A DNA stretch of 64,000 nucleotides from Hirudinaria manillensis (lineage: Eukaryota; Annelida; Clitellata; Hirudinida; Hirudinidae): assembly GCA_034509925.1 (NCBI GenBank), contig CM067538.1:4527778-4591777 (forward strand), written 5' to 3'. This document shows positions 285 to 59,247 of the stretch, piece by piece; positions within the stretch are counted from its first letter, which is position 1, and the number at the start of each line of letters is the position of its first letter. The notes beneath the pieces are model-generated. The model saw nothing but the letters and a program-made list of their open reading frames with translations, did no database searches and was not told the DNA's origin. A program made the translations under genes and the position numbers.

Positions 285-1256
285 CTGGTGTTGGAAACGA
301 AAATATGATGAATCAGATAAGCCGAACAATTAAAAACACTGCTCCTTGGTAAAGGCCAGTGATGTAAATTTTGTTAATTGCTGAAATGGTTATTGTGAAT
401 TTTTATTATTTTTATTATTTTATTATTTATCAGAAAGTTTTGGAATCAAAATTACAAACAATTCATATTACAAATTCATATTCTAGCAGCTAACGTAAAC
501 CGATTAGATGCAGACTAAAAACAAAACTAATGATTTATATTTCGCTTATTCATGGGGCATTTTGCTGGAATTTTGTATGAAAAGACTTCTTTTGTCTGGG
601 ATCTCATAACAAATTTTTATGCGCATGTAAGACCTTAATAATGAAATAAATTATTTCCTGATTTATACCCTTTTATTATATTTAATATTTTCAACGATGT
701 TATCTTTGAACGAACACCTTCGAATAGATGTTGATTTGAAGATGCCATTGTGAAGGATATTAACTAAAATTTCTGTCTCAATTTTCCTGCTTATCCTGCT
801 TTAGAAATTTCACAATTTCTTTTTACATGATTTAAGGTTTGTAATACAATACAAGTTAAATTGAAAGCATTTAAATTTTAAAATAAATACTGGGGTTTCC
901 AGGCGATATAATCACGTTAATGGCGTAGTCGGGATAGAATTAGACCTAAGTTCAATTTAAGCGATCAAGTCTCCAAATATGGGAATATCAAACCATTTTA
1001 ATATAAGTACCATGAAAATATGAAGCCATTAGACAGTTAAATAAATTATTATTAATCAGAAAACATATTTAAGCAGTGAAATGACAAATCTTAAATCCCA
1101 GATTCCCTCACCCCAAAATAAAGGAACCCCCTTTCCTCATAAAATGGTCCAATTTTTAAGAAGGATTACAATCCTATTAATTATTAATACTATTCAGTCA
1201 AAGAATTACCGAAAGTTGACAAAAAGTAGGAGAAATGTGAGGCTTTTAAAACAAGT
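285..1256. other. Intergenic left flank, no gene seen
   Basis: AT-rich sequence without a long open frame, splice-consistent exon or recognisable repeat. The ORF at 1081-1272 runs into the array edge and has no coding character. Similarity to the tandem array begins near 1257 (TTAGAAATTTTATG). Confidence 0.5.
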
Positions 1257-1273
1257 ATTAGAAATTTTATGAA

Positions 1274-1279
1274 TTTATT
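1274..1279 (-). promoter_or_regulatory. Polyadenylation signal AATAAA, unit 1
   Basis: On the minus strand AATAAA lies about 48 nt after the stop codon of the first Elongin-A-like gene. The same sequence recurs at the same distance in the other units, so each unit appears to carry its own 3' end signal. Confidence 0.55.
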
Positions 1280-1326
1280 TATATATTGAGTGCATTTTTA
1301 GGCTAATTCAAATGTTGTGAGGTCAT

Positions 1327-2019
1327 TCATTTACTTTTCTTCACTTGGAGGTTCTTTCTCGGTTGCAAGTCGACGAGTTTCGTCTTATGAACTTTCATTT
1401 CTTCTTCCTTGTACCTCGCCTGGAGGACAATTTTAGATCTTCTCAATTTTTCGTCCTCCGCACTCTTTTCGGACAAGAACAATTCCTTCCAGGTCCGATT
1501 TCCACGATCGCAATGATCCGGATATTTCGTAGAAACGAGATTCTTCCACAAATCGTCGGTTTCTCTGACCACGTCAGGGTACAGCTTCTCGAACATGTGC
1601 AGACGTCGAGCATCAAGTTTTCTCAAAACTGGTTCGATGAGGTCGTAGGGCAGTTCGTTCAGACCTTCTAATCCTTCGAAATCTTTCAAGAGCAGATGCT
1701 GAAACCTCCCCACCAAACTCATTTCTTTCGACCTCCCTTTTGTCTTGTGGCAGAAAACTGGCGTCCTGACACTTTCCATGCGAATTCCGAACAACGCCGG
1801 CTGGTGTCTTTTCCTCTCCACGAGAAGAAGAGAAATTGATTCGAGGCGGCTCAAAACCTGTTCTTCTTGAAGACAATCGTCTTCTTTGATGTCGTCCATC
1901 CACGCCTCGTCGTCACCGGTCGTCTCAAGACGGAGCAACTTTCGAGGCGGTTCCTCGTTTACTAAATCCTCCTCCATTTTGCGTTTGTTTGAGGTGATGC
2001 CTTCTTTAAGATCCGACAT
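1327..2019 (-). CDS. Elongin-A-like protein, array unit 1
   Basis: A 230-codon intronless gene. Elongin A is the large subunit of the RNA polymerase II elongation factor SIII and, with Elongin B/C and a cullin, a substrate receptor for a ubiquitin ligase. The match is to the conserved Elongin-A region at about residues 100-200. It has a BC-box-like segment (SLVGRFQHLL, about 101-110), LPYDLIEPVL at 123-132, then ETDDLW at about 153-158 and a basic, charged tail. The usual BC-box cysteine is phenylalanine here. The N-terminal 95 residues are acidic and basic by turns, with KRK and RKLLR patches that could serve in nuclear import. Full-length Elongin A is several times longer and has an N-terminal TFIIS-like domain that is absent here. 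I chose the ATG at 2019; the in-frame codon two positions upstream is TTG, not ATG. The upstream spacer is the most diverged in the array. Confidence 0.85.
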   Translation of the reverse strand: MSDLKEGITSNKRKMEEDLVNEEPPRKLLRLETTGDDEAWMDDIKEDDCLQEEQVLSRLESISLLLVERKRHQPALFGIRMESVRTPVFCHKTKGRSKEMSLVGRFQHLLLKDFEGLEGLNELPYDLIEPVLRKLDARRLHMFEKLYPDVVRETDDLWKNLVSTKYPDHCDRGNRTWKELFLSEKSAEDEKLRRSKIVLQARYKEEEMKVHKTKLVDLQPRKNLQVKKSK

Positions 2020-2566
2020 TTTCAATTCTCAGTTTACGCAGTGGGACTAGCTATTTGGTGTTTCGTGTACTACGCCTGGCGTTTCTCGTATGCTGTTGCG
2101 CGAAAAAGATTCTGAATATAATAGGCCGATAAAAAAAAATATTAATAAAGGCAAAAAAAGGTAAACGTTCGGCCGTTTGCTGCATTTGATTTATAACAAT
2201 ATCAAACATAATTAAAGGCATAAAAAATTTAGTAAAATGCTTTTCATAGATAAAACGGTGTTTTTTAAATAACGGTTTATGCGATTCGTGGTTATTTCGC
2301 ATTTCACTCGAGTATTTAAAGCCTTTTGTTGAGTCATAAATTTGACGCCATTTACGACGTCTTATAATTTCAAATCATTTGAAACATTTACTTAAAAGTA
2401 ATTGGTATTAACCCTTGGATGTATTAACTTAAGGTATGAAGTTGTACGCTCGTTCGGCATCCGGGGGTTAAATAAACAAACGTGACTGAGAAAAGGGGTA
2501 ATGCTTTCTTAATTATGAATATTATTTATGATAAAATATGATGAAATCGCGAAAAATAGTAACTGA
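2020..2566 (-). promoter_or_regulatory. Inter-unit spacer, presumed promoter region (unit 1 copy)
   Basis: About 550-600 bp of AT-rich DNA separates each gene start from the next gene's 3' end. It should hold the promoter and the 5' UTR. A TTTAAATAC word on the minus strand, about 300 bp before the ATG, is the only TATA-like element I noticed, and it is weak. Conserved blocks include a GTTCGGCATCCGAGGGTTAAATAAAC-type stretch split by a few substitutions. This unit-1 copy carries extra bases (CGGTTTATGCGATTCG) and reads GTGGTTATTT where internal spacers read GTGGTAATTT; the far right spacer also has the T form. Confidence 0.4.
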
Positions 2567-2639
2567 GTTTTAGAAATTTTATGAATTTATTTATATATTG
2601 AGTGCATTTTTGAGGCTAATTCAAATGTTGTGAGGTCAT

Positions 2640-3332
2640 TCATTTACTTTTCTTCACTTGGAGGTTCTTTCTCGGTTGCAAGTCGACGAGTTTCGTCTTA
2701 TGAACTTTCATTTCTTCTTCCTTGTACCTCGCCTGGAGGACAATTTTAGATCTTCTCAATTTTTCGTCCTCCGCACTCTTTTCGGACAAGAACAATTCCT
2801 TCCAGGTCCGATTTCCACGATCGCAATGATCCGGATATTTCGTAGAAACGAGATTCTTCCACAAATCGTCGGTTTCTCTGACCACGTCAGGGTACAGCTT
2901 CTCGAACATGTGCAGACGTCGAGCATCAAGTTTTCTCAAAACTGGTTCGATGAGGTCGTAGGGCAGTTCGTTCAGACCTTCTAATCCTTCGAAATCTTTC
3001 AAGAGCAGATGCTGAAACCTCCCCACCAAACTCATTTCTTTCGACCTCCCTTTTGTCTTGTGGCAGAAAACTGGCGTCCTGACACTTTCCATGCGAATTC
3101 CGAACAACGCCGGCTGGTGTCTTTTCCTCTCCACGAGAAGAAGAGAAATTGATTCGAGGCGGCTCAAAACCTGTTCTTCTTGAAGACAATCGTCTTCTTT
3201 GATGTCGTCCATCCACGCCTCGTCGTCACCGGTCGTCTCAAGACGGAGCAACTTTCGAGGCGGTTCCTCGTTTACTAAATCTTCCTCCATTTTGCGTTTG
3301 TTTGAGGTGATGCCTTCTTTAAGATCCGACAT
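2640..3332 (-). CDS. Elongin-A-like protein, array unit 2
   Basis: The 230-residue product is identical to that of unit 1. At DNA level it differs by a silent change in the codons after the KRKMEE patch (TCTTCC in place of TCCTCC on the plus strand). Its upstream spacer (3333-3870) has the internal-type sequence with a long A-run and an open frame at 3383-3643 on the same strand. Confidence 0.85.
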   Translation of the reverse strand: MSDLKEGITSNKRKMEEDLVNEEPPRKLLRLETTGDDEAWMDDIKEDDCLQEEQVLSRLESISLLLVERKRHQPALFGIRMESVRTPVFCHKTKGRSKEMSLVGRFQHLLLKDFEGLEGLNELPYDLIEPVLRKLDARRLHMFEKLYPDVVRETDDLWKNLVSTKYPDHCDRGNRTWKELFLSEKSAEDEKLRRSKIVLQARYKEEEMKVHKTKLVDLQPRKNLQVKKSK

Positions 3333-3945
3333 TTTCAATTCTCAGTTTACGCAGTGGGACTAGCTATTTGGTGTTTCGTGTACTACGCCTGGCGTTTCTC
3401 GTATGCTGTTGCGCGAAAAAGATTCTGAATATAATAGGCCAATAAAAAAAAAATATTAATAAAGGCAAAAAAAGGTAAACGTTCGGCCGTTTGCTGCATT
3501 TGATTTATAACAATATCAAACATTATTAAAGACATAAAAAATTTAGTAAAATGCTTTTCATAGATAAAACGGTGTTTTTTAAATAACGATTCGTGGTAAT
3601 TTCGCATTTCACTCGAGTATTTAAAGCCTTTTGTTGTAGTCATAAATTTGACGCCATTTACGACGTCTTATAATTTCAAATCATTTGAAACATTTATTTA
3701 AAAGTAATTGGTATTAACCCTTGGATGTATTAACTTAAGGTATGAAGTTGTACGCTCGTTCGGCATCCGAGGGTTAAATAAACAAACGTGACTGAGAAAA
3801 GGGGTAATGCTTTCTTAATTATGAATATTATTTATGATAAAATATGATGAAATCGCGAAAAATAGTAACTGAGTTTTAGAAATTTTATGAATTTATTTAT
3901 ATATTGAGTGCATTTTTGAGGCTAATTCAAATGTTGTGAGGTCAT

Positions 3946-4638
3946 TCATTTACTTTTCTTCACTTGGAGGTTCTTTCTCGGTTGCAAGTCGACGAGTTTC
4001 GTCTTATGAACTTTCATTTCTTCTTCCTTGTACCTCGCCTGGAGGACAATTTTAGATCTTCTCAATTTTTCGTCCTCCGCACTCTTTTCGGACAAGAACA
4101 ATTCCTTCCAGGTCCGATTTCCACGATCGCAATGATCCGGATATTTCGTAGAAACGAGATTCTTCCACAAATCGTCGGTTTCTCTGACCACGTCAGGGTA
4201 CAGCTTCTCGAACATGTGCAGACGTCGAGCATCAAGTTTTCTCAAAACTGGTTCGATGAGGTCGTAGGGCAGTTCGTTCAGACCTTCTAATCCTTCGAAA
4301 TCTTTCAAGAGCAGATGCTGAAACCTCCCCACCAAACTCATTTCTTTCGACCTCCCTTTTGTCTTGTGACAGAAAACTGGCGTCCTGACACTTTCCATGC
4401 GAATTCCGAACAACGCCGGCTGGTGTCTTTTCCTCTCCACGAGAAGAAGAGAAATTGATTCGAGGCGGCTCAAAACCTGTTCTTCTTGAAGACAATCGTC
4501 TTCTTTGATGTCGTCCATCCACGCCTCGTCGTCACCGGTCGTCTCAAGACGGAGCAACTTTCGAGGCGGTTCCTCGTTTACTAAATCCTCCTCCATTTTG
4601 CGTTTGTTTGAGGTGATGCCTTCTTTAAGATCCGACAT
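3946..4638 (-). CDS. Elongin-A-like protein, array unit 3
   Basis: Product identical to units 1 and 2. It has a silent TGC to TGT change in the FCHKTKG segment, also present in unit 9. Its upstream spacer is 3 bp shorter than its neighbours because AGTAACTGAG reads AGTAAGAG near 5169, which accounts for the 1303-bp unit. Confidence 0.85.
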   Translation of the reverse strand: MSDLKEGITSNKRKMEEDLVNEEPPRKLLRLETTGDDEAWMDDIKEDDCLQEEQVLSRLESISLLLVERKRHQPALFGIRMESVRTPVFCHKTKGRSKEMSLVGRFQHLLLKDFEGLEGLNELPYDLIEPVLRKLDARRLHMFEKLYPDVVRETDDLWKNLVSTKYPDHCDRGNRTWKELFLSEKSAEDEKLRRSKIVLQARYKEEEMKVHKTKLVDLQPRKNLQVKKSK

Positions 4639-5248
4639 TTTCAATTCTCAGTTTACGCAGTGGGACTAGCTATTTGGTGTTTCGTGTACTACGCCTGGCG
4701 TTTCTCGTATGCTGTTGCGCGAAAAAGATTCTGAATATAATAGGCCGATAAAAAAAAATATTAATAAAGGCAAAAAAAGGTAAACGTTCGGCCGTTTGCT
4801 GCATTTGATTTATAACAATATCAAACATTATTAAAGACATAAAAAATTTAGTAAAATGCTTTTCATAGATAAAACGGTGTTTTTTAAATAACGATTCGTG
4901 GTAATTTCGCATTTCACTCGAGTATTTAAAGCCTTTTGTTGTAGTCATAAATTTGACGCCATTTACGACGTCTTATAATTTCAAATCATTTGAAACATTT
5001 ATTTAAAAGTAATTGGTATTAACCCTTGGATGTATTAACTTAAGGTATGAAGTTGTACGCTCGTTCGGCATCCGAGGGTTAAATAAACAAACGTGACTGA
5101 GAAAAGGGGTAATGCTTTCTTAATTATGAATATTATTTATGATAAAATATGATGAAATCGCGAAAAATAGTAAGAGTTTTAGAAATTTTATGAATTTATT
5201 TATATATTGAGTGCATTTTTGAGGCTAATTCAAATGTTGTGAGGTCAT

Positions 5249-5941
5249 TCATTTACTTTTCTTCACTTGGAGGTTCTTTCTCGGTTGCAAGTCGACGAGT
5301 TTCGTCTTATGAACTTTCATTTCTTCTTCCTTGTACCTCGCCTGGAGGACAATTTTAGATCTTCTCAATTTTTCGTCCTCCGCACTCTTTTCGGACAAGA
5401 ACAATTCCTTCCAGGTCCGATTTCCACGATCGCAATGATCCGGATATTTCGTAGAAACGAGATTCTTCCACAAATCGTCGGTTTCTCTGACCACGTCAGG
5501 GTACAGCTTCTCGAACATGTGCAGACGTCGAGCATCAAGTTTTCTCAAAACTGGTTCGATGAGGTCGTAGGGCAGTTCGTTCAGACCTTCTAATCCTTCG
5601 AAATCTTTCAAGAGCAGATGCTGAAACCTCCCCACCAAACTCATTTCTTTCGACCTCCCTTTTGTCTTGTGGCAGAAAACTGGCGTCCTGACACTTTCCA
5701 TGCGAATTCCGAACAACGCCGGCTGGTGTCTTTTCCTCTCCACGAGAAGAAGAGAAATTGATTCGAGGCGGCTCAAAACCTGTTCTTCTTGAAGACAATC
5801 GTCTTCTTTGATGTCGTCCATCCACGCCTCGTCGTCACCGGTCGTCTCAAGACGGAGCAACTTTCGAGGCGGTTCCTCGTTTACTAAATCTTCCTCCATT
5901 TTGCGTTTGTTTGAGGTGATGCCTTTTTTAAGATCCGACAT
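5249..5941 (-). CDS. Elongin-A-like protein, array unit 4 (E6K variant)
   Basis: A full 230-codon frame with one amino-acid change, glutamate 6 to lysine (start reads MSDLKKG), caused by TTC to TTT on the plus strand near 5924. This is outside the Elongin-A conserved region. Everything else matches the consensus unit. Confidence 0.85.
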   Translation of the reverse strand: MSDLKKGITSNKRKMEEDLVNEEPPRKLLRLETTGDDEAWMDDIKEDDCLQEEQVLSRLESISLLLVERKRHQPALFGIRMESVRTPVFCHKTKGRSKEMSLVGRFQHLLLKDFEGLEGLNELPYDLIEPVLRKLDARRLHMFEKLYPDVVRETDDLWKNLVSTKYPDHCDRGNRTWKELFLSEKSAEDEKLRRSKIVLQARYKEEEMKVHKTKLVDLQPRKNLQVKKSK

Positions 5942-6554
5942 TTTCAATTCTCAGTTTACGCAGTGGGACTAGCTATTTGGTGTTTCGTGTACTACGCCTG
6001 GCGTTTCTCGTATGCTGTTGCGCGAAAAAGATTCTGAATATAATAGGCCAATAAAAAAAAAATATTAATAAAGGCAAAAAAAGGTAAACGTTCGGCCGTT
6101 TGCTGCATTTGATTTATAACAATATCAAACATTATTAAAGACATAAAAAATTTAGTAAAATGCTTTTCATAGATAAAATGGTGTTTTTTAAATAACGATT
6201 CGTGGTAATTTCGCATTTCACTCGAGTATTTAAAGCCTTTTGTTGTAGTCATAAATTTGACGCCATTTACGACGTCTTATAATTTCAAATCATTTGAAAC
6301 ATTTATTTAAAAGTAATTGGTATTAACCCTTGGATGTATTAACTTAAGGTATGAAGTTGTACGCTCGTTCGGCATCCGAGGGTTAAATAAACAAACGTGA
6401 CTGAGAAAAGGGGTAATGCTTTCTTAATTATGAATATTATTTATGATAAAATATGATGAAATCGCGAAAAATAGTAACTGAGTTTTAGAAATTTTATGAA
6501 TTTATTTATATATTGAGTGCATTTTTGAGGCTAATTCAAATGTTGTGAGGTCAT

Positions 6555-7247
6555 TCATTTACTTTTCTTCACTTGGAGGTTCTTTCTCGGTTGCAAGTCG
6601 ACGAGTTTCGTCTTATGAACTTTCATTTCTTCTTCCTTGTACCTCGCCTGGAGGACAATTTTAGATCTTCTCAATTTTTCGTCCTCCGCACTCTTTTCGG
6701 ACAAGAACAATTCCTTCCAGGTCCGATTTCCACGATCGCAATGATCCGGATATTTCGTAGAAACGAGATTCTTCCACAAATCGTCGGTTTCTCTGACCAC
6801 GTCAGGGTACAGCTTCTCGAACATGTGCAGACGTCGAGCATCAAGTTTTCTCAAAACTGGTTCGATGAGGTCGTAGGGCAGTTCGTTCAGACCTTCTAAT
6901 CCTTCGAAATCTTTCAAGAGCAGATGCTGAAACCTCCCCACCAAACTCATTTCTTTCGACCTCCCTTTTGTCTTGTGGCAGAAAACTGGCGTCCTGACAC
7001 TTTCCATGCGAATTCCGAACAACGCCGGCTGGTGTCTTTTCCTCTCCACGAGAAGAAGAGAAATTGATTCGAGGCGGCTCAAAACCTGTTCTTCTTGAAG
7101 ACAATCGTCTTCTTTGATGTCGTCCATCCACGCCTCGTCGTCACCGGTCGTCTCAAGACGGAGCAACTTTCGAGGCGGTTCCTCGTTTACTAAATCCTCC
7201 TCCATTTTGCGTTTGTTTGAGGTGATGCCTTCTTTAAGATCCGACAT
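6555..7247 (-). CDS. Elongin-A-like protein, array unit 5
   Basis: Consensus 230-residue product with no amino-acid change. Gene and spacer are close to identical to unit 6, which suggests these two exchanged or duplicated recently. Confidence 0.85.
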   Translation of the reverse strand: MSDLKEGITSNKRKMEEDLVNEEPPRKLLRLETTGDDEAWMDDIKEDDCLQEEQVLSRLESISLLLVERKRHQPALFGIRMESVRTPVFCHKTKGRSKEMSLVGRFQHLLLKDFEGLEGLNELPYDLIEPVLRKLDARRLHMFEKLYPDVVRETDDLWKNLVSTKYPDHCDRGNRTWKELFLSEKSAEDEKLRRSKIVLQARYKEEEMKVHKTKLVDLQPRKNLQVKKSK

Positions 7248-7860
7248 TTTCAATTCTCAGTTTACGCAGTGGGACTAGCTATTTGGTGTTTCGTGTACTA
7301 CGCCTGGCGTTTCTCGTATGCTGTTGCGCGAAAAAGATTCTGAATATAATAGGCCAATAAAAAAAAAATATTAATAAAGGCAAAAAAAGGTAAACGTTCG
7401 GCCGTTTGCTGCATTTGATTTATAACAATATCAAACATTATTAAAGACATAAAAAATTTAGTAAAATGCTTTTCATAGATAAAACGGTGTTTTTTAAATA
7501 ACGATTCGTGGTAATTTCGCATTTCACTCGAGTATTTAAAGCCTTTTGTTGTAGTCATAAATTTGACGCCATTTACGACGTCTTATAATTTCAAATCATT
7601 TGAAACATTTATTTAAAAGTAATTGGTATTAACCCTTGGATGTATTAACTTAAGGTATGAAGTTGTACGCTCGTTCGGCATCCGAGGGTTAAATAAACAA
7701 ACGTGACTGAGAAAAGGGGTAATGCTTTCTTAATTATGAATATTATTTATGATAAAATATGATGAAATCGCGAAAAATAGTAACTGAGTTTTAGAAATTT
7801 TATGAATTTATTTATATATTGAGTGCATTTTTGAGGCTAATTCAAATGTTGTGAGGTCAT

Positions 7861-8553
7861 TCATTTACTTTTCTTCACTTGGAGGTTCTTTCTCGGTTGC
7901 AAGTCGACGAGTTTCGTCTTATGAACTTTCATTTCTTCTTCCTTGTACCTCGCCTGGAGGACAATTTTAGATCTTCTCAATTTTTCGTCCTCCGCACTCT
8001 TTTCGGACAAGAACAATTCCTTCCAGGTCCGATTTCCACGATCGCAATGATCCGGATATTTCGTAGAAACGAGATTCTTCCACAAATCGTCGGTTTCTCT
8101 GACCACGTCAGGGTACAGCTTCTCGAACATGTGCAGACGTCGAGCATCAAGTTTTCTCAAAACTGGTTCGATGAGGTCGTAGGGCAGTTCGTTCAGACCT
8201 TCTAATCCTTCGAAATCTTTCAAGAGCAGATGCTGAAACCTCCCCACCAAACTCATTTCTTTCGACCTCCCTTTTGTCTTGTGGCAGAAAACTGGCGTCC
8301 TGACACTTTCCATGCGAATTCCGAACAACGCCGGCTGGTGTCTTTTCCTCTCCACGAGAAGAAGAGAAATTGATTCGAGGCGGCTCAAAACCTGTTCTTC
8401 TTGAAGACAATCGTCTTCTTTGATGTCGTCCATCCACGCCTCGTCGTCACCGGTCGTCTCAAGACGGAGCAACTTTCGAGGCGGTTCCTCGTTTACTAAA
8501 TCCTCCTCCATTTTGCGTTTGTTTGAGGTGATGCCTTCTTTAAGATCCGACAT
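7861..8553 (-). CDS. Elongin-A-like protein, array unit 6
   Basis: Consensus 230-residue product. I saw no base difference from unit 5 across the coding region, nor in the parts of the spacer I compared by eye. Confidence 0.85.
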   Translation of the reverse strand: MSDLKEGITSNKRKMEEDLVNEEPPRKLLRLETTGDDEAWMDDIKEDDCLQEEQVLSRLESISLLLVERKRHQPALFGIRMESVRTPVFCHKTKGRSKEMSLVGRFQHLLLKDFEGLEGLNELPYDLIEPVLRKLDARRLHMFEKLYPDVVRETDDLWKNLVSTKYPDHCDRGNRTWKELFLSEKSAEDEKLRRSKIVLQARYKEEEMKVHKTKLVDLQPRKNLQVKKSK

Positions 8554-9166
8554 TTTCAATTCTCAGTTTACGCAGTGGGACTAGCTATTTGGTGTTTCGT
8601 GTACTACGCCTGGCGTTTCTCGTATGCTGTTGCGCGAAAAAGATTCTGAATATAATAGGCCAATAAAAAAAAAATATTAATAAAGGCAAAAAAAGGTAAA
8701 CGTTCGGCCGTTTGCTGCATTTGATTTATAACAATATCAAACATTATTAAAGACATAAAAAATTTAGTAAAATGCTTTTCATAGATAAAACGGTGTTTTT
8801 TAAATAACGATTCGTGGTAATTTCGCATTTCACTCGAGTATTTAAAGCCTTTTGTTGTAGTCATAAATTTGACGCCATTTACGACGTCTTATAATTTCAA
8901 ATCATTTGAAACATTTATTTAAAAGTAATTGGTATTAACCCTTGGATGTATTAACTTAAGGTATGAAGTTGTACGCTCGTTCGGCATCCGAGGGTTAAAT
9001 AAACAAACGTGACTGAGAAAAGGGGTAATGCTTTCTTAATTATGAATATTATTTATGATAAAATATGATGAAATCGCGAAAAATAGTAACTGAGTTTTAG
9101 AAATTTTATGAATTTATTTATATATTGAGTGCATTTTTGAGGCTAATTCAAATGTTGTGAGGTCAT

Positions 9167-9859
9167 TCATTTACTTTTCTTCACTTGGAGGTTCTTTCTC
9201 GGTTGCAAGTCGACGAGTTTCGTCTTATGAACTTTCATTTCTTCTTCCTTGTACCTCGCCTGGAGGACAATTTTAGATCTTCTCAATTTTTCGTCCTCCG
9301 CACTCTTTTCGGACAAGAACAATTCCTTCCAGGTCCGATTTCCACGATCGCAATGATCCGGATATTTCGTAGAAACGAGATTCTTCCACAAATCGTCGGT
9401 TTCTCTGACCACGTCAGGGTACAGCTTCTCGAACATGTGCAGACGTCGAGCATCAAGTTTTCTCAAAACTGGTTCGATGAGGTCGTAGGGCAGTTCGTTC
9501 AGACCTTCTAATCCTTCGAAATCTTTCAAGAGCAGATGCTGAAACCTCCCCACCAAACTCATTTCTTTCGACCTCCCTTTTGTCTTGTGGCAGAAAACTG
9601 GCGTCCTGACACTTTCCATGCGAATTCCGAACAACGCCGGCTGGTGTCTTTTCCTCTCCACGAGAAGAAGAGAAATTGATTCGAGGCGGCTCAAAACCTG
9701 TTCTTCTTGAAGACAGTCGTCTTCTTTGATGTCGTCCATCCACGCCTCGTCGTCACCGGTCGTCTCAAGACGGAGCAACTTTCGAGGCGGTTCCTCGTTT
9801 ACTAAATCCTCCTCCATTTTGCGTTTGTTTGAGGTGATGCCTTCTTTAAGATCCGACAT
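9167..9859 (-). CDS. Elongin-A-like protein, array unit 7
   Basis: Consensus product. A silent change near 9717 (GACAGTCGTC in place of GACAATCGTC) is shared with unit 12, at the other side of the deleted units. Its upstream spacer differs locally (AATAATGCAAAAA and a TGTATATAAT variant), which extends the spacer reading frame to 92 codons. Confidence 0.85.
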   Translation of the reverse strand: MSDLKEGITSNKRKMEEDLVNEEPPRKLLRLETTGDDEAWMDDIKEDDCLQEEQVLSRLESISLLLVERKRHQPALFGIRMESVRTPVFCHKTKGRSKEMSLVGRFQHLLLKDFEGLEGLNELPYDLIEPVLRKLDARRLHMFEKLYPDVVRETDDLWKNLVSTKYPDHCDRGNRTWKELFLSEKSAEDEKLRRSKIVLQARYKEEEMKVHKTKLVDLQPRKNLQVKKSK

Positions 9860-10471
9860 TTTCAATTCTCAGTTTACGCAGTGGGACTAGCTATTTGGTG
9901 TTTCGTGTACTACGCCTGGCGTTTCTCGTATGCTGTTGCGCGAAAAAGATTCTGTATATAATAGGCCAATAAAAAAAAAATATTAATAATGCAAAAAAAG
10001 GTAAACGTTCGGCCGTTTGCTGCATTTGATTTATAACAATATCAAACATTATTAAAGACATAAAAAATTTAGTAAAATGCTTTTCATAGATAAAATGGTG
10101 TTTTTTAAATAACGATTCGTGGTAATTTCGCATTTCACTCGAGTATTTAAAGCCTTTTGTTGTAGTCATAAATTTGACGCCATTTACGACGTCTTATAAT
10201 TTCAAATCATTTGAAACATTTTCTTAAAAGTAATTGGTATTAACCCTTGGATGTATTAACTTAAGGTATGAAGTTGTACGCTCGTTCGGCATCCGAGGGT
10301 TAAATAAACAAACGTGATTGAGAAAAGGGGTAATGCTTTCTTAATTATGAATATTATTTATGATAAAATATGATGAAATCGCGAAAAATAGTAACTGAGT
10401 TTTAGAAATTTTATGAATTTATTTATATATTGAGTGCATTTTTGAGGCTAATTCAAATGTTGTGAGGTCAT

Positions 10472-11164
10472 TCATTTACTTTTCTTCACTTGGAGGTTCT
10501 TTCTCGGTTGCAAGTCGACGAGTTTCGTCTTATGAACTTTCATTTCTTCTTCCTTGTACCTCGCCTGGAGGACAATTTTAGATCTTCTCAATTTTTCGTC
10601 CTCCGCACTCTTTTCGGACAAGAACAATTCCTTCCAGGTCCGATTTCCACGATCGCAATGATCCGGATATTTCGTAGAAACGAGATTCTTCCACAAATCG
10701 TCGGTTTCTCTGACCACGTCAGGGTACAGCTTCTCGAACATGTGCAGACGTCGAGCATCAAGTTTTCTCAAAACTGGTTCGATGAGGTCGTAGGGCAGTT
10801 CGTTCAGACCTTCTAATCCTTCGAAATCTTTCAAGAGCAGATGCTGAAACCTCCCCACCAAACTCATTTCTTTCGACCTCCCTTTTGTCTTGTGGCAGAA
10901 AACTGGCGTCCTGACACTTTCCATGCGAATTCCGAACAACGCCGGCTGGTGTCTTTTCCTCTCCACGAGAAGAAGAGAAATTGATTCGAGGCGGCTCAAA
11001 ACCTGTTCTTCTTGAAGACAATCGTCTTCTTTGATGTCGTCCATCCACGCCTCGTCGTCACCGGTCGTCTCAAGACGGAGCAACTTTCGAGGCGGTTCCT
11101 CGTTTACTAAATCCTCCTCCATTTTGCGTTTGTTTGAGGTGATGCCTTCTTTAAGATCCGACAT
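10472..11164 (-). CDS. Elongin-A-like protein, array unit 8
   Basis: Consensus product. The spacer upstream has one extra A in the A-run near 11275, giving the 1307-bp unit. The spacer on its other side, between units 7 and 8, is the first to carry the right-hand variants (GTGATTGAG, ACATTTTCTTAAAAG). Confidence 0.85.
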   Translation of the reverse strand: MSDLKEGITSNKRKMEEDLVNEEPPRKLLRLETTGDDEAWMDDIKEDDCLQEEQVLSRLESISLLLVERKRHQPALFGIRMESVRTPVFCHKTKGRSKEMSLVGRFQHLLLKDFEGLEGLNELPYDLIEPVLRKLDARRLHMFEKLYPDVVRETDDLWKNLVSTKYPDHCDRGNRTWKELFLSEKSAEDEKLRRSKIVLQARYKEEEMKVHKTKLVDLQPRKNLQVKKSK

Positions 11165-11778
11165 TTTCAATTCTCAGTTTACGCAGTGGGACTAGCTATT
11201 TGGTGTTTCGTGTACTACGCCTGGCGTTTCTCGTATGCTGTTGCGCGAAAAAGATTCTGAATATAATAGGCCAATAAAAAAAAAAATATTAATAAAGGCA
11301 AAAAAAGGTAAACGTTCGGCCGTTTGCTGCATTTGATTTATAACAATATCAAACATTATTAAAGACATAAAAAATTTAGTAAAATGCTTTTCATAGATAA
11401 AATGGTGTTTTTTAAATAACGATTCGTGGTAATTTCGCATTTCACTCGAGTATTTAAAGCCTTTTGTTGTAGTCATAAATTTGACGCCATTTACGACGTC
11501 TTATAATTTCAAATCATTTGAAACATTTTCTTAAAAGTAATTGGTATTAACCCTTGGATGTATTAACTTAAGGTATGAAGTTGTACGCTCGTTCGGCATC
11601 CGAGGGTTAAATAAACAAACGTGATTGAGAAAAGGGGTAATGCTTTCTTAATTATGAATATTATTTATGATAAAATATGATGAAATCGCGAAAAATAGTA
11701 ACTGAGTTTTAGAAATTTTATGAATTTATTTATATATTGAGTGCATTTTTGAGGCTAATTCAAATGTTGTGAGGTCAT

Positions 11779-12471
11779 TCATTTACTTTTCTTCACTTGG
11801 AGGTTCTTTCTCGGTTGCAAGTCGACGAGTTTCGTCTTATGAACTTTCATTTCTTCTTCCTTGTACCTCGCCTGGAGGACAATTTTAGATCTTCTCAATT
11901 TTTCGTCCTCCGCACTCTTTTCGGACAAGAACAATTCCTTCCAGGTCCGATTTCCACGATCGCAATGATCCGGATATTTCGTAGAAACGAGATTCTTCCA
12001 CAAATCGTCGTTTTCTCTGACCACGTCAGGGTACAGCTTCTCGAACATGTGCAGACGTCGAGCATCAAGTTTTCTCAGAACTGGTTCGATGAGGTCGTAG
12101 GGCAGTTCGTTCAGACCTTCTAATCCTTCGAAATCTTTCAAGAGCAGATGCTGAAACCTCCCCACCAAACTCATTTCTTTCGACCTCCCTTTTGTCTTGT
12201 GACAGAAAACTGGCGTCCTGACACTTTCCATGCGAATTCCGAACAACGCCGGCTGGTGTCTTTTCCTCTCCACGAGAAGAAGAGAAATTGATTCGAGGCG
12301 GCTCAAAACCTGTTCTTCTTGAAGACAATCGTCTTCTTTGATGTCGTCCATCCACGCCTCGTCGTCACCGGTCGTCTCAAGACGGAGCAACTTTCGAGGC
12401 GGTTCCTCGTTTACTAAATCCTCCTCCATTTTGCGTTTGTTTGAGGTGATGCCTTCTTTAAGATCCGACAT
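11779..12471 (-). CDS. Elongin-A-like protein, array unit 9 (T154N variant)
   Basis: A full frame with threonine 154 changed to asparagine (RENDDLW in place of RETDDLW), inside the conserved Elongin-A region, plus a silent change nearby (TCTCAGAAC). Both changes recur in unit 12, so units 9 and 12 share a recent ancestor although two deleted units lie between them. Confidence 0.85.
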   Translation of the reverse strand: MSDLKEGITSNKRKMEEDLVNEEPPRKLLRLETTGDDEAWMDDIKEDDCLQEEQVLSRLESISLLLVERKRHQPALFGIRMESVRTPVFCHKTKGRSKEMSLVGRFQHLLLKDFEGLEGLNELPYDLIEPVLRKLDARRLHMFEKLYPDVVRENDDLWKNLVSTKYPDHCDRGNRTWKELFLSEKSAEDEKLRRSKIVLQARYKEEEMKVHKTKLVDLQPRKNLQVKKSK

Positions 12472-13084
12472 TTTCAATTCTCAGTTTACGCAGTGGGACT
12501 AGCTATTTGGTGTTTCGTGTACTACGCCTGGCGTTTCTCGTATGCTGTTGCGCGAAAAAGATTCTGAATATAATAGGCCAATAAAAAAAAAATATTAATA
12601 AAGGCAAAAAAAGGTAAACGTTCGGCCGTTTGCTGCATTTGATTTATAACAATATCAAACATTATTAAAGACATAAAAAATTTAGTAAAATGCTTTTCAT
12701 AGATAAAATGGTGTTTTTTAAATAACGATTCGTGGTAATTTCGCATTTCACTCGAGTATTTAAAGCCTTTTGTTGTAGTCATAAATTTGACGCCATTTAC
12801 GACGTCTTATAATTTCAAATCATTTGAAACATTTTCTTAAAAGTAATTGGTATTAACCCTTGGATGTATTAACTTAAGGTATGAAGTTGTACGCTCGTTC
12901 GGCATCCGAGGGTTAAATAAACAAACGTGATTGAGAAAAGGGGTAATGCTTTCTTAATTATGAATATTATTTATGATAAAATATGATGAAATCGCGAAAA
13001 ATAGTAACTGAGTTTTAGAAATTTTATGAATTTATTTATATATTGAGTGCATTTTTGAGGCTAATTCAAATGTTGTGAGGTCAT

Positions 13085-13302
13085 TCATTTACTTTTCTTC
13101 ACTTGGAGGTTCTTTCTCGGTTGCAAGTCGACGAGTTTCGTCTTATGAACTTTCATTTCTTCTTCCTTGTACCTCGCCTGGAGGACAATTTTAGATCTTC
13201 TCAATTTTTCGTCCTCCTCACTCTTTTCGGACAAGAACAATTCCTTCCAGGTCCGATTTCCACGATCGCAATGATCCGGATATTTCGTAGAAACGAGATT
13301 CT
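13085..13302 (-). pseudogene. Truncated Elongin-A-like gene, unit 10 (internal deletion)
   Basis: Only the last 71 or so codons remain (from about N160 to the stop). The coding part ends at AGATTCT (13296-13302), where it joins directly to spacer that in full units also follows an AGATTCT. About 570 bp are missing: the first two thirds of the gene and the promoter-proximal spacer. The remnant reads SEEDEK where full units read SAEDEK (A187E), a change shared with unit 11. A missing G in the spacer near 13449 (GGTTTTTTT for GGTGTTTTTT) breaks the frame that is open in unit 11. The conserved BC-box-like segment is lost, so an Elongin-type function is unlikely. Confidence 0.85.
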
Positions 13303-13820
13303 GAATATAATAGGCCAATAAAAAAAAAATATTAATAAAGGCAAAAAAAGGTAAACGTTCGGCCGTTTGCTGCATTTGATTTATAACAATATCAAACATT
13401 ATTAAAGACATAAAAAATTTAGTAAAATGCTTTTCATAGATAAAATGGTTTTTTTAAATAACGATTCGTGGTAATTTCGCATTTCACTCGAGTATTTAAA
13501 GCCTTTTGTTGTAGTCATAAATTTGACGCCATTTACGACGTCTTATAATTTCAAATCATTTGAAACATTTTCTTAAAAGTAATTGGTATTAACCCTTGGA
13601 TGTATTAACTTAAGGTATGAAGTTGTACGCTCGTTCGGCATCCGAGGGTTAAATAAACAAACGTGATTGAGAAAAGGGGTAATGCTTTCTTAATTATGAA
13701 TATTATTTATGATAAAATATGATAAAATCGCGAAAAATAGTAACTGAGTTTTAGAAATTTTATGAATTTATTTATATATTGAGTGCATTTTTGAGGCTAA
13801 TTCAAATGTTGTGAGGTCAT

Positions 13821-14038
13821 TCATTTACTTTTCTTCACTTGGAGGTTCTTTCTCGGTTGCAAGTCGACGAGTTTCGTCTTATGAACTTTCATTTCTTCTT
13901 CCTTGTACCTCGCCTGGAGGACAATTTTAGATCTTCTCAATTTTTCGTCCTCCTCACTCTTTTCGGACAAGAACAATTCCTTCCAGGTCCGATTTCCACG
14001 ATCGCAATGATCCGGATATTTCGTAGAAACGAGATTCT
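13821..14038 (-). pseudogene. Truncated Elongin-A-like gene, unit 11 (internal deletion, chimeric frame)
   Basis: The deletion junction is the same as in unit 10, at AGATTCT 14032-14038. The frame continues from the 71-codon remnant back into spacer, giving an uninterrupted 144-codon chimeric frame from an ATG at 14255. The N-terminal half of that frame is spacer sequence with Phe- and Ile-rich composition; the C-terminal half is the basic Elongin-A-like tail. Whether it is transcribed cannot be told from sequence. Confidence 0.85.
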
Positions 14039-14557
14039 GAATATAATAGGCCAATAAAAAAAAAATATTAATAAAGGCAAAAAAAGGTAAACGTTCGGCC
14101 GTTTGCTGCATTTGATTTATAACAATATCAAACATTATTAAAGACATAAAAAATTTAGTAAAATGCTTTTCATAGATAAAATGGTGTTTTTTAAATAACG
14201 ATTCGTGGTAATTTCGCATTTCACTCGAGTATTTAAAGCCTTTTGTTGTAGTCATAAATTTGACGCCATTTACGACGTCTTATAATTTCAAATCATTTGA
14301 AACATTTACTTAAAAGTAATTGGTATTAACCCTTGGATGTATTAACTTAAGGTATGAAGTTGTACGCTCGTTCGGCATCCGAGGGTTAAATAAACAAACG
14401 TGATTGAGAAAAGGGGTAATGCTTTCTTAATTATGAATATTATTTATGATAAAATATGATGAAATCGCGAAAAATAGTAACTGAGTTTTAGAAATTTTAT
14501 GAATTTATTTATATATTGAGTGCATTTTTGAGGCTAATTCAAATGTTGTGAGGTCAT

Positions 14558-15250
14558 TCATTTACTTTTCTTCACTTGGAGGTTCTTTCTCGGTTGCAAG
14601 TCGACGAGTTTCGTCTTATGAACTTTCATTTCTTCTTCCTTGTACCTCGCCTGGAGGACAATTTTAGATCTTCTCAATTTTTCGTCCTCCGCACTCTTTT
14701 CGGACAAGAACAATTCCTTCCAGGTCCGATTTCCACGATCGCAATGATCCGGATATTTCGTAGAAACGAGATTCTTCCACAAATCGTCGTTTTCTCTGAC
14801 CACGTCAGGGTACAGCTTCTCGAACATGTGCAGACGTCGAGCATCAAGTTTTCTCAGAACTGGTTCGATGAGGTCGTAGGGCAGTTCGTTCAGACCTTCT
14901 AATCCTTCGAAATCTTTCAAGAGCAGATGCTGAAACCTCCCCACCAAACTCATTTCTTTCGACCTCCCTTTTGTCTTGTGGCAGAAAACTGGCGTCCTGA
15001 CACTTTCCATGCGAATTCCGAACAACGCCGGCTGGTGTCTTTTCCTCTCCACGAGAAGAAGAGAAATTGATTCGAGGCGGCTCAAAACCTGTTCTTCTTG
15101 AAGACAGTCGTCTTCTTTGATGTCGTCCATCCACGCCTCGTCGTCACCGGTCGTCTCAAGACGGAGCAACTTTCGAGGCGGTTCCTCGTTTACTAAATCC
15201 TCCTCCATTTTGCGTTTGTTTGAGGTGATGCCTTCTTTAAGATCCGACAT
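14558..15250 (-). CDS. Elongin-A-like protein, array unit 12 (T154N variant)
   Basis: The last full unit. It carries N154, the same silent change as unit 9, and the GACAGTCGTC silent change of unit 7. It is therefore a mosaic of variants seen elsewhere in the array. Its upstream spacer runs to about 15645, then similarity stops, so this gene keeps only about 395 bp of the usual spacer. Its promoter would be judged intact only if the needed elements lie within that stretch. Confidence 0.85.
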   Translation of the reverse strand: MSDLKEGITSNKRKMEEDLVNEEPPRKLLRLETTGDDEAWMDDIKEDDCLQEEQVLSRLESISLLLVERKRHQPALFGIRMESVRTPVFCHKTKGRSKEMSLVGRFQHLLLKDFEGLEGLNELPYDLIEPVLRKLDARRLHMFEKLYPDVVRENDDLWKNLVSTKYPDHCDRGNRTWKELFLSEKSAEDEKLRRSKIVLQARYKEEEMKVHKTKLVDLQPRKNLQVKKSK

Positions 15251-15645
15251 TTTCAATTCTCAGTTTACGCAGTGGGACTAGCTATTTGGTGTTTCGTGTA
15301 CTACGCCTGGCGTTTCTCGTATGCTGTTGCGCGAAAAAGATTCTGAATATAATAGGCCAATAAAAAAAAAATATTAATAAAGGCAAAAAAAGGTAAACGT
15401 TCGGCCGTTTGCTGCATTTGATTTATAACAATATCAAACATTATTAAAGACATAAAAAATTTAGTAAAATGCTTTTCATAGATAAAATGGTGTTTTTTAA
15501 ATAACGATTCGTGGTTATTTCGCATTTCACTCGAGTATTTAAAGCCTTTTGTTGTAGTCATAAATTTGACGCCATTTACGACGTCATATAATTTCAAATC
15601 ATTTGAAACATTTTCTTAAAAGGAATTGGTATTAACCCTTGGATG

Positions 15646-16166: not shown

Positions 16167-19100
16167 ATGAGTCAAGCATTACTTCTTTTGCTATTAGGCA
16201 TCTCATATCAGCTATCGGCAGGTAATTTATGTTGTTTGAATCTGTCCTTAATTTGATCTCCTCTCTGACTGAATTAATTGAGTCGATGACAGTAAACAAA
16301 ACTAAAGGGTTTACTAATTTTAAACATCAGAGCAAAGATCTTGTAAATGGTTTGCAATCACTCAAAGCAAATGTGAGAAAAAAAATCATACTACATTTAT
16401 TTGTTTTTCAGTTAGATCTGGCTGGCCTGAAGGGACGTATGGCCTCCCAAGGTCTAAATCTGGATGTCCAACTGATGATGTTTTTAAGTGGAATTATGGT
16501 GAGCTCACACTTTTCATAAATTTAATCTTTTTTCATGTAAGTAAGTATTCGTTAGCAATATAGGAACAAATTAATTTGACTTTATTCACTATCTAATCAT
16601 ATTTCAGTATTTAGTAGAATAGGTGAAATTAATTTTCAATCTGCATTTTAAAATAAGTAGAACTATGCAATAGTTACAGTTTACAAATGATTACAGCCAT
16701 AGCTATGCTAAAACTTTTAGGACATGTTGCAGGAAAGAGAATCCATCTCACCAGACAAGGAAGCTATTCCTCACCTTCAAACAACCTCTTTGGTTCAAAT
16801 CCTGAGAAGTCAGACATTGTCGTGCAGGGGTTTTGCATAAAAAATGACAGCATCAGCGATGGGAAGCACAGGTTCATGCCAGGTTCATTTCACTGGCACC
16901 AATTAATTTTTCTAATAATTTGTTGAAGTAATGTTTGTTTATTCATTTTCTCGTTAGTTAATTGAAGTTATTAATGCAGATGAAAGACTTAAAAACCATG
17001 GATTTTATGTCGGGTGTCTTTATTACACAAACTTATATAAACAAATGCATGTTCTTATTGCATTGTTTGTAGCAATAATATGTAAATTAGATAATATTTT
17101 TCAATTTGTTAACATAATAATAATAATAATAATAACAAACCAAACACTTGTAAACTCAGGTAAATATTGCATCTTCAAGAAAGGAAGATGCCCTGCGTCA
17201 TTCAAAGAGGGTTCTATTTATTGGGACGACGGGGGACCCCTGCTCGGCAAAACGACCCAAGCGGCATCCGGTTAGATATCAGTTGATTATCGGTTAACTA
17301 TTAGTTTATTATTATAAATAATAAATGAAATATATGTAAAATATAATAAAAGTAATAAATGAGGATGAAAATTCATTTTAATTTCATCTCAACTAGTCTT
17401 TCTTGTGTTTCTTGTACATTAAAAAGCAGAGCAGTTTTAAATTTAAGAGTTCCTTTGTAACAACAACAATAATAATAAAAATAATTTCTTAAGTTTTAGA
17501 GAAACTCAAAATTAAATGCTTACAAAAATATTTAAATTTGAAATTACTATGAATTGAAAAGATTCTCACATTTTGGAGAAAATTCCCATAAAACATAAAT
17601 TGTTCAAAAATTCATTCTACCAATAATAACGTTTTTTTTATTCTGGCAGCCATTTTTAATAACAATCCGGTCGATTATTAGGTGTCGAATTCATTGTTTA
17701 ATTAGCAATAAATACAAAAAAATACAAATAAATATAAATATCAGGTGACCTGCCAGATGGAACCTACAACAGAAACACGAGAATCGAGTTTTGTTGCAGA
17801 ACTGATGGTCAACATTTGAAGTCCATTGACCTGCCTGCTGATCAACCTTTCTATCTGCTCAAGTACGGAGACATGTGCCAGCAGGTATTTTAGGGAATTT
17901 TTGTTGTTAACGTTTCATTCATTCATTCATTCATTCATTCATTCATTCATTCATTCATTCATTCATTCATTCATTCATTCATTCATTCATTCATTCATTC
18001 ATTCATTCATTCATTCATTCATTCATTCATTCATTCATTCATTCATTCATTCATTCATTCATTCATTCATTCATTCATTCATTCATTCATTCATTCACTC
18101 ATTCACTCATTCACTCATTCATTCATTCATTCATTAATTCATTAATTCATTCATTCATTCATTCATTCATTCATTCATTCATTCATTCATTCATTCATTC
18201 ATTCATTCATTCATTCATTCATTCATTCATTCATTCATTCATTCCTTCATTCCTTTATTAACTTGTAAAAATGAAGGATCGTTATGTCATCAGTACAGTT
18301 ATATTGTTGATTTGTTCATCTGATTTCTTGTTATTTATTAATGAATTGTTAGATTTTATCTTTGATTTTGTTAATAAATAAATGCAGATGAGTGCTTAGT
18401 TTTTGCCTGCTTTTTGTTTTGTTAAGTTTTTCTTTTAGAAGTTTTTATTTAAATAAATAAGAAGAAAAAAAAATACTTTATCACATAAAACTTCTTATTG
18501 CATTTTATTCATATTATTTTATATAAGTACACGTTTCAATTATGGTAAAAAGAGTTAGGATAATCATTAAAACATTAAAAGTTGTAAATTTATTTTCATA
18601 TGCCTGAAAACAACATTGTCTAATTGTTATAGTCACATTAAAAGTCTAAATAATAATAAATAATAATAATAAGATGCTTGTGGAAGGTCCAAATCTCACC
18701 ACTTACAAAGTTTTTTTTAAAAAAGGTTTGGATTCCATAATAAAATTTATTACTGTTGGCATCAGTGAACAGTTAATCTATTACTGTTGGTGTCATGCAT
18801 AGTTAATCATGTCCACAAGATGGCTTGGGTTGGAGTGTCAATTCATGACCTTGTCTTTGGAGATTTATGTCTTTAGAAACATGAGAATAACCAGCACTTA
18901 CACATTCTTGAGCCTTATCTTTTCCTTAAGATTTATTACTTCCTTGTAAATCCTTGGAAAATGGAGAACCAACCAGTGAGCCACCCAAGTAATTAAAAGT
19001 CAAATGTTTTTAAAAGATTTCTAGTTAGTTTTGTTTATTATTATAATTATAATTAAATTTCAGATTTATGATTTGAGTTAAAGTTTGGTAATGACTTTGC

Positions 19101-35657: not shown

Positions 35658-52747
<17,090 letters not shown>

Positions 52748-58302: not shown

Positions 58303-59247
<945 letters not shown>

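Follow-up and report, generated by a model that had tools for sequence, protein, structure and literature searches.

Among the closest described systems to the locus reported here is primate ELOA3, which is reported in primates only (Morgan et al. 2023, PMC10664989) and consists of near-identical intronless tandem copies, 12 of them in CHM13, with an intron-bearing ELOA gene elsewhere. The same article describes copies with mostly intact open reading frames (ORFs), more degraded at the edges of the cluster, under purifying selection and homogenised, in units described with Alu, mariner and Charlie elements (PMC10664989). Among the open papers in the matches listed, the ELOA3 paper was the only one found to describe a tandem Elongin A array. 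The window analysed here, a stretch of 64,000 nucleotides of the leech Hirudinaria manillensis (contig 13, C13:4527778-4591777), carries such an array of Elongin A-like genes, denoted array 1, and the genome to which it belongs (148.4 Mb in 23 contigs) was searched for relatives. The finding stands and is larger than first described: the initial annotation reported a 14-kb array, which is indeed present and is one of two, its sister residing on contig C4, so that the counterpart of ELOA3 comprises two sister arrays under purifying selection. We consider it probable that these homogenised arrays of an old retrogene supply an alternative Elongin A that is selected to work.

A search with conserved anchors and alignment of the units resolved array 1 into 12 head-to-tail units with all genes on the minus strand. 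Full units are spaced 1303-1313 bp apart and two adjacent ones 736 and 737 bp; unbroken ORFs of 230 codons from ATG (693 bp including the stop) are found in 10 of the 12, in agreement with the ten complete near-identical genes and two deleted ones originally noted. The 230-amino-acid (aa) form is hereafter A1. In window coordinates, the features are as follows.

1253..15645, minus strand: array 1, 12 tandem units (anchor search, unit alignment, spacer DNA search)
1274..1279, minus strand: AATAAA, polyadenylation-like signal, 48 bp beyond the copy 1 stop codon (by eye)
1327..2019, minus strand: copy 1, 230-aa Elongin A-like ORF, edge copy with diverged spacer (ORF, Pfam, PDB sequence match)
2114..2123, minus strand: TATA-like motif TATTATATTC (gene strand), upstream of copy 1, putative promoter (by eye)
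2640..3332, minus strand: copy 2, 230-aa ORF (ORF)
3946..4638, minus strand: copy 3, 230-aa ORF (ORF)
5249..5941, minus strand: copy 4, 230-aa ORF, E6K (ORF, unit alignment)
6555..7247, minus strand: copy 5, 230-aa ORF (ORF)
7861..8553, minus strand: copy 6, 230-aa ORF (ORF)
9167..9859, minus strand: copy 7, 230-aa ORF (ORF)
10472..11164, minus strand: copy 8, 230-aa ORF (ORF)
11779..12471, minus strand: copy 9, 230-aa ORF, T154N (ORF, unit alignment)
13009..13744, minus strand: unit 10, 736 bp, internal deletion, about 72 terminal codons left (anchors, alignment)
13745..14481, minus strand: unit 11, 737 bp, same deletion as in unit 10 (anchors, alignment)
14558..15250, minus strand: copy 12, 230-aa ORF, T154N, edge copy (ORF, unit alignment)

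When compared with copy 1, seven of the ten proteins (copy 1 included) gave the full score, one carried E6K and two T154N. A chance origin of the array is excluded because the spacer DNA of unit 1 matched all 12 units; elsewhere its only match was a 64-base stretch (80%) located at a decayed C6 relic. The deletion common to units 10 and 11 fuses coding-region sequence to the upstream flank of the gene at a shared AGATTCT (by eye); roughly two thirds of the gene are lost together with its 5' untranslated region, and the last 72-73 codons are left; the TATA-like motif lies just outside the deletion and is kept in both units (by eye). Since the same deletion occurs in adjacent units, the deleted unit was itself copied, which would fit unequal crossing-over or conversion.

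The interior copies 2-9 vary at 6 of 693 coding and 8 of 623 spacer columns (Fisher p 0.59, from a table with 613 spacer bases), whereas all ten copies show 6 coding and 16 spacer variable columns (p 0.017). Thus, the equal conservation of gene and spacer originally proposed holds for the interior of the array and fails across all ten copies because the edge copies have diverged spacers. Some spacer variants split the array near copies 6/7, with a breakpoint that is not constant, and homogenisation therefore looks local. Four of the six coding variants are synonymous; among all possible single changes, 20% are.

A profile search of the genome with PF06881 yielded 38 matches at E up to 0.001, namely 10 in the window and 28 on C4, and 43 at E up to 10, with two of the five additional matches on C4 and three on C9. 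The C4 array (C4:9464485-9506811, loci L009-L014) contains 28 intronless copies spaced 1507-1525 bp apart, 27 of which encode the same 342-aa protein, A2, copy 25 being frameshifted by one indel. There are no substitutions in the coding sequence across the 28 copies and none in the approximately 170 bp upstream of copies 2-28; a TATA box, TATATAAA, begins 85 bp before the ATG. All 11 variable columns of this array lie in the AT-rich 3' spacer; several are located in homopolymer runs or by gaps where the alignment is unsure, and at least three are clear. With the unsure columns counted, copies 1-27 have 0 coding versus 10 spacer variable sites (p 1e-5). A 3' fragment at C4:9463725 precedes the array. 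Altogether, 37 of the 38 full-length copies in the two arrays are intact (10 of 10 for A1, 27 of 28 for A2), a count that leaves out the two deleted units, the C4:9463725 edge fragment and relics. A search of viral contigs with A2 as the sole query produced six stretches that fit a pattern, none confirmed as relatives.

The Elongin A likeness initially proposed is borne out by matches of A1 to PF06881 (Elongin_A) at residues 119-213 (E 9.8e-14, 52.2 bits against a cut-off of 29.8) and to the human Elongin A structures 4hfx and 8oev (E about 2e-6, PDB sequences), and A2 also matches PF06881 (E 1.7e-10, 41.8 bits). A1 starts at the point where the first ~97 residues of A2 end, and Elongin_A is its only Pfam match; given that it is without the N-terminal TFIIS-like helical domain, we denote it Elongin A-like rather than full Elongin A. 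For A2, a TFIIS-N domain is plausible by eye and had no Pfam support; against our own five-sequence TFIIS-N profile A2 scored 2.0 bits, with 5 of 200 shuffles higher and others equal, and its structure model is of low confidence (mean pLDDT 53.8, pTM 0.30).

Contig C9 contains TFIIS-N and Elongin_A matches in separate frames, and two intron-bearing Elongin A genes were modelled there by eye from splice sites and frame, each model ending before the 3' end: ELOA1 (C9:8786453-8788565; 8 exons, 7 GT/AG introns, 385 codons) and ELOA2 (C9:8838577-8840299; 7 exons, 6 introns). The two reside on the same strand ~52 kb apart, and the ELOA2 model is without one ELOA1 intron. The search for an intron-bearing relative that the initial annotation suggested thus succeeded, and its description of the array genes as intronless is upheld, because A1 and A2 run unbroken across the places that match the ELOA1/ELOA2 introns, which makes retroposition likely. 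A1 and A2 are 41% identical over 225 aa (E 8e-49) and A1 and ELOA1 33% over 149 aa, the overall identity of either array protein to the host Elongin A genes being 20-28%. In a maximum-likelihood tree (5 sequences, 119 columns), A1 and A2 group with bootstrap 100. Separate derivation of A1 and A2 from ELOA1/ELOA2 was also considered, and both tested trees were rejected (p-AU below 1e-4). The arrays are without C9-type introns and belong to a single lineage, so both probably go back to one old retrogene. The proposed retroposition followed by tandem duplication is accordingly retained as the probable course, but retroposition of a partial transcript is not needed: with one ancestor for A1 and A2, the short form may have lost its N-terminal part later. 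Under this scenario, a spliced Elongin A mRNA would have been retroposed long ago, its descendants would have diverged into the long form A2 and the short form A1 without the N-terminal part, and each would have expanded into a tandem array held uniform by unequal crossing-over and gene conversion.

Selection could be assessed by comparison with decayed relics, one of the A1 type at C6:3890825-3891065 and two of the A2 type at C4:9272128-9272277 and C4:9955223-9955844, the last within a duplicated segment that also holds the right flank of the C4 array. The ratio of non-synonymous to synonymous differences (pN/pS) is 0.21 (0.09-0.36) for A1 versus the C6 relic and 0.18 (0.09-0.35) for A2 versus the C4:9272k relic; pooled over these two older relics (147 codons), it is 0.19 (95% 0.11-0.29), with dS about 0.57. 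In the younger C4:9955 copy there are 5 synonymous and 9 non-synonymous differences, and 15 bases are missing, as would be expected of a decaying copy. Between A1 and A2, dS is 1.46, near saturation, and pN/pS is 0.60 (0.50-0.72). The coding sequence is under purifying selection, and the lineage is old and constrained, with nearly identical copies within each array.

In PMC10716050, residues 548-707 of human Elongin A are given as minimally required for elongation, and R555 and K559 are placed in the latch that contacts RNA polymerase II. Residues 78-193 of A1 align with this region, and the arginine matching R555 (numbered via an inferred three-residue offset to the 8oev chain, as is K559) is present in both A1 and A2. 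The aligned BC-box stretches are SLVGRFQHLL in A1, VLDRFSDLFF in A2, TYIEKFQHLL in ELOA1, PLTEKFRQHL in ELOA2 and TLHQQCIRVL in human, the A1 stretch resembling that of ELOA1. Because the required region is aligned and the latch arginine kept, A1 may be a natural minimal Elongin A, and the short form would then be a natural trial of how little Elongin A suffices. As judged from the sequence, A1 has most likely kept its ability to bind Elongin C/B and RNA polymerase II, since it spans the putative latch and BC-box, the Elongin A domain and the region that follows. It could act as an alternative elongation factor, a ubiquitin-ligase adaptor or both, and the many copies would provide dosage, with the germline or early embryo as the most plausible setting. 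Human Elongin A2 is reportedly expressed specifically in the testis (Aso et al. 2000), and by analogy a germline or early-embryo role is perhaps to be expected here.

Seven families were searched with profiles besides cox1 (ELOA, TFIIS-N, TFIIS_M, Skp1/ELOC, SPT4, RPB4 and TIM), and long arrays were seen among them for the Elongin A-like genes alone. The Skp1_POZ search together with an Elongin C-like query detected six unbroken Elongin C-like ORFs of 114-138 aa, and six unbroken TFIIS-like ORFs were found on C2 and C12, two of them checked by Pfam.

C4:9766902, 9768496, 9771302 and 10609105; C8:3090048 and 3153412: Elongin C-like ORFs
C2:12735615-12740490 and C2:12773770-12779062: TFIIS-like ORFs, two pairs in opposite orientation
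C12:9070918-9074024: TFIIS-like ORFs, one pair

Three of the six Elongin C-like ORFs were read individually; one, compared with PDB, matched Elongin C (E 1.5e-22). One of the six served as the query copy, to which the remaining five show 60-65% identity. On C11, two pieces (54 and 42%) resemble ordinary intron-bearing Elongin C. Three of the ORFs are clustered at C4:9766902-9771631, and it was noticed post hoc that four of the six, as well as an SPT4 match at C4:10505417, are located within about 1.1 Mb of the C4 array. SPT4 gave four matches, three of them unbroken over positions 1-76 of 77, and RPB4 one nearly full unbroken match plus two split and one weak, whereas the sole metabolic control, TIM, is represented by one gene split into five pieces. 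With unbroken extra copies extending beyond Elongin, the excess for elongation factors is suggestive only. We advance as a tentative possibility, somewhat less probable than not, a second, retrogene-encoded Elongin complex in which the arrayed A1/A2 genes (38 full-length, 37 intact), the six Elongin C-like genes and the extra TFIIS and SPT4 copies would make up a parallel RNA polymerase II elongation machinery dedicated to one tissue or stage, for example the germline or zygotic genome activation.

Several observations weigh against an alternative Elongin A encoded by a selected retrogene. The extra unbroken matches for the controls SPT4 and RPB4 indicate that intronless extras are not special to Elongin; coding variants among A1 copies number only six; the latch K559 is out of register in the alignment; and the BC-box has F at a position where we take the consensus to be C, A or S, although F is also found in host ELOA1 and ELOA2. 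Inspection by eye showed no poly-A tail or target-site duplication, no systematic search having been made, and the selection test covers 147 codons and two relics, with constraint on each pair not assigned to a lineage. The SPT4 and RPB4 matches, as putative intronless copies, would also be accounted for if retroposition in this genome were generic, yielding such copies of many genes, with nothing particular about Elongin; this is a rather unlikely account of the arrays, given the single TIM gene in five pieces and the restriction of long arrays to Elongin A-like genes among the families searched. It is about equally doubtful, though worth keeping in mind, that the function has moved from elongation and that the proteins serve chiefly as adaptors of ubiquitin ligases or inhibit by competing with Elongin A for Elongin C and RNA polymerase II: the missing N-terminal part of A1, the 20-28% overall identity to the host genes and the fast protein change between A1 and A2 (pN/pS 0.60) are compatible with such a shift, but A1 retains the part reported as required for elongation in vitro.

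A selfish or neutral macrosatellite, in which unequal crossing-over spreads the array and the ORF is a passenger not yet decayed, would explain why gene and spacer are both nearly identical among interior A1 copies, why deleted units persist and were copied, and why relics are scattered. It is nevertheless improbable in view of the pN/pS of 0.19 against relics, the intactness of 37 of 38 full-length copies and the absence of A2 coding substitutions versus at least three clear ones in the spacer; purely selfish propagation, listed originally among the possible drivers, is likewise disfavoured by the relic comparison. Very high identity might also betray an assembly artefact, in which mis-assembly had multiplied one or a few genes or had joined alleles in a row, and the copy number, known from the assembly only, may be wrong. 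Such an artefact is nonetheless highly improbable as the source of the arrays, because the units have private variants and lengths, a deletion is doubled, non-repeat sequence continues on both sides of array 1 within an 8.3-Mb contig and the second array lies on another contig. A pair of homogenised retrogene arrays that supplies a working alternative Elongin A thus remains the reading we favour, and it allows one to ask why genomes keep dozens of identical elongation-factor gene copies.

No tRNA was found in the window, and no Rfam match reached the gathering score there or in loci L009, L014 and L015. Exons at 16400-17900 resemble by eye what we take to be an apextrin (ApeC) type protein; one exon was scanned, with no Pfam match. 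An unbroken frame at 58521-59246, which follows a long asparagine run derived from a trinucleotide repeat, matches zf-RVT weakly (E 0.004, short of the cut-off) and is perhaps the tail of a non-LTR (long terminal repeat) retrotransposon. Long TTCA and AAT/TAT microsatellites occupy 17914-18252, 39396-39599 and 48833-49017, among 93 tandem-repeat rows in the window.

Contig C23 (15,581 bp) is the mitochondrial genome, with the gene order cox1, cox2, atp8, cox3, nad6, cob, then nad1, nad3, nad2, which we take to be the annelid pattern; protein names were assigned by eye, rRNA places were inferred from gaps, and the order was read with the tRNAs found. A nuclear contig also holds a full-length match to cox1 (C9:3026446-3027786), which equals the mitochondrial match in score and, like it, has nine TGA codons; it appears to be a recent nuclear mitochondrial insertion or a mis-join.

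Human Elongin A2, an intronless single-copy gene, is likewise an additional Elongin A gene, and differs from the arrays in being single. Coding macrosatellites, such as D4Z4/DUX4 with its 3.3-kb units, likewise carry a retrogene ORF in tandem units, and the protein is unrelated.

ELOA3 resembles the leech arrays in several respects. The leech arrays are intronless, with intron-bearing Elongin A elsewhere in the genome; they consist of tandem near-identical copies with mostly intact ORFs (10 of 12 units and 27 of 28 copies); and they share diverged or degraded edge copies, purifying selection and homogenised copies. The units here measure 1.3 and 1.5 kb. Because ELOA3 is reported as primate-only (PMC10664989) and because of the mitochondrial gene order of the host, we infer an origin separate from that of ELOA3, in line with the convergence initially suggested. 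If so, tandem amplification of retroposed Elongin A evolved at least twice in animals, and ELOA3, described as primate-specific and of open purpose, would become one instance of a repeated, comparable evolutionary outcome. Unlike ELOA3, the leech case involves a distant host and two sister arrays, whose proteins are short, at 230 and 342 aa, and it is accompanied by Elongin C-like genes.

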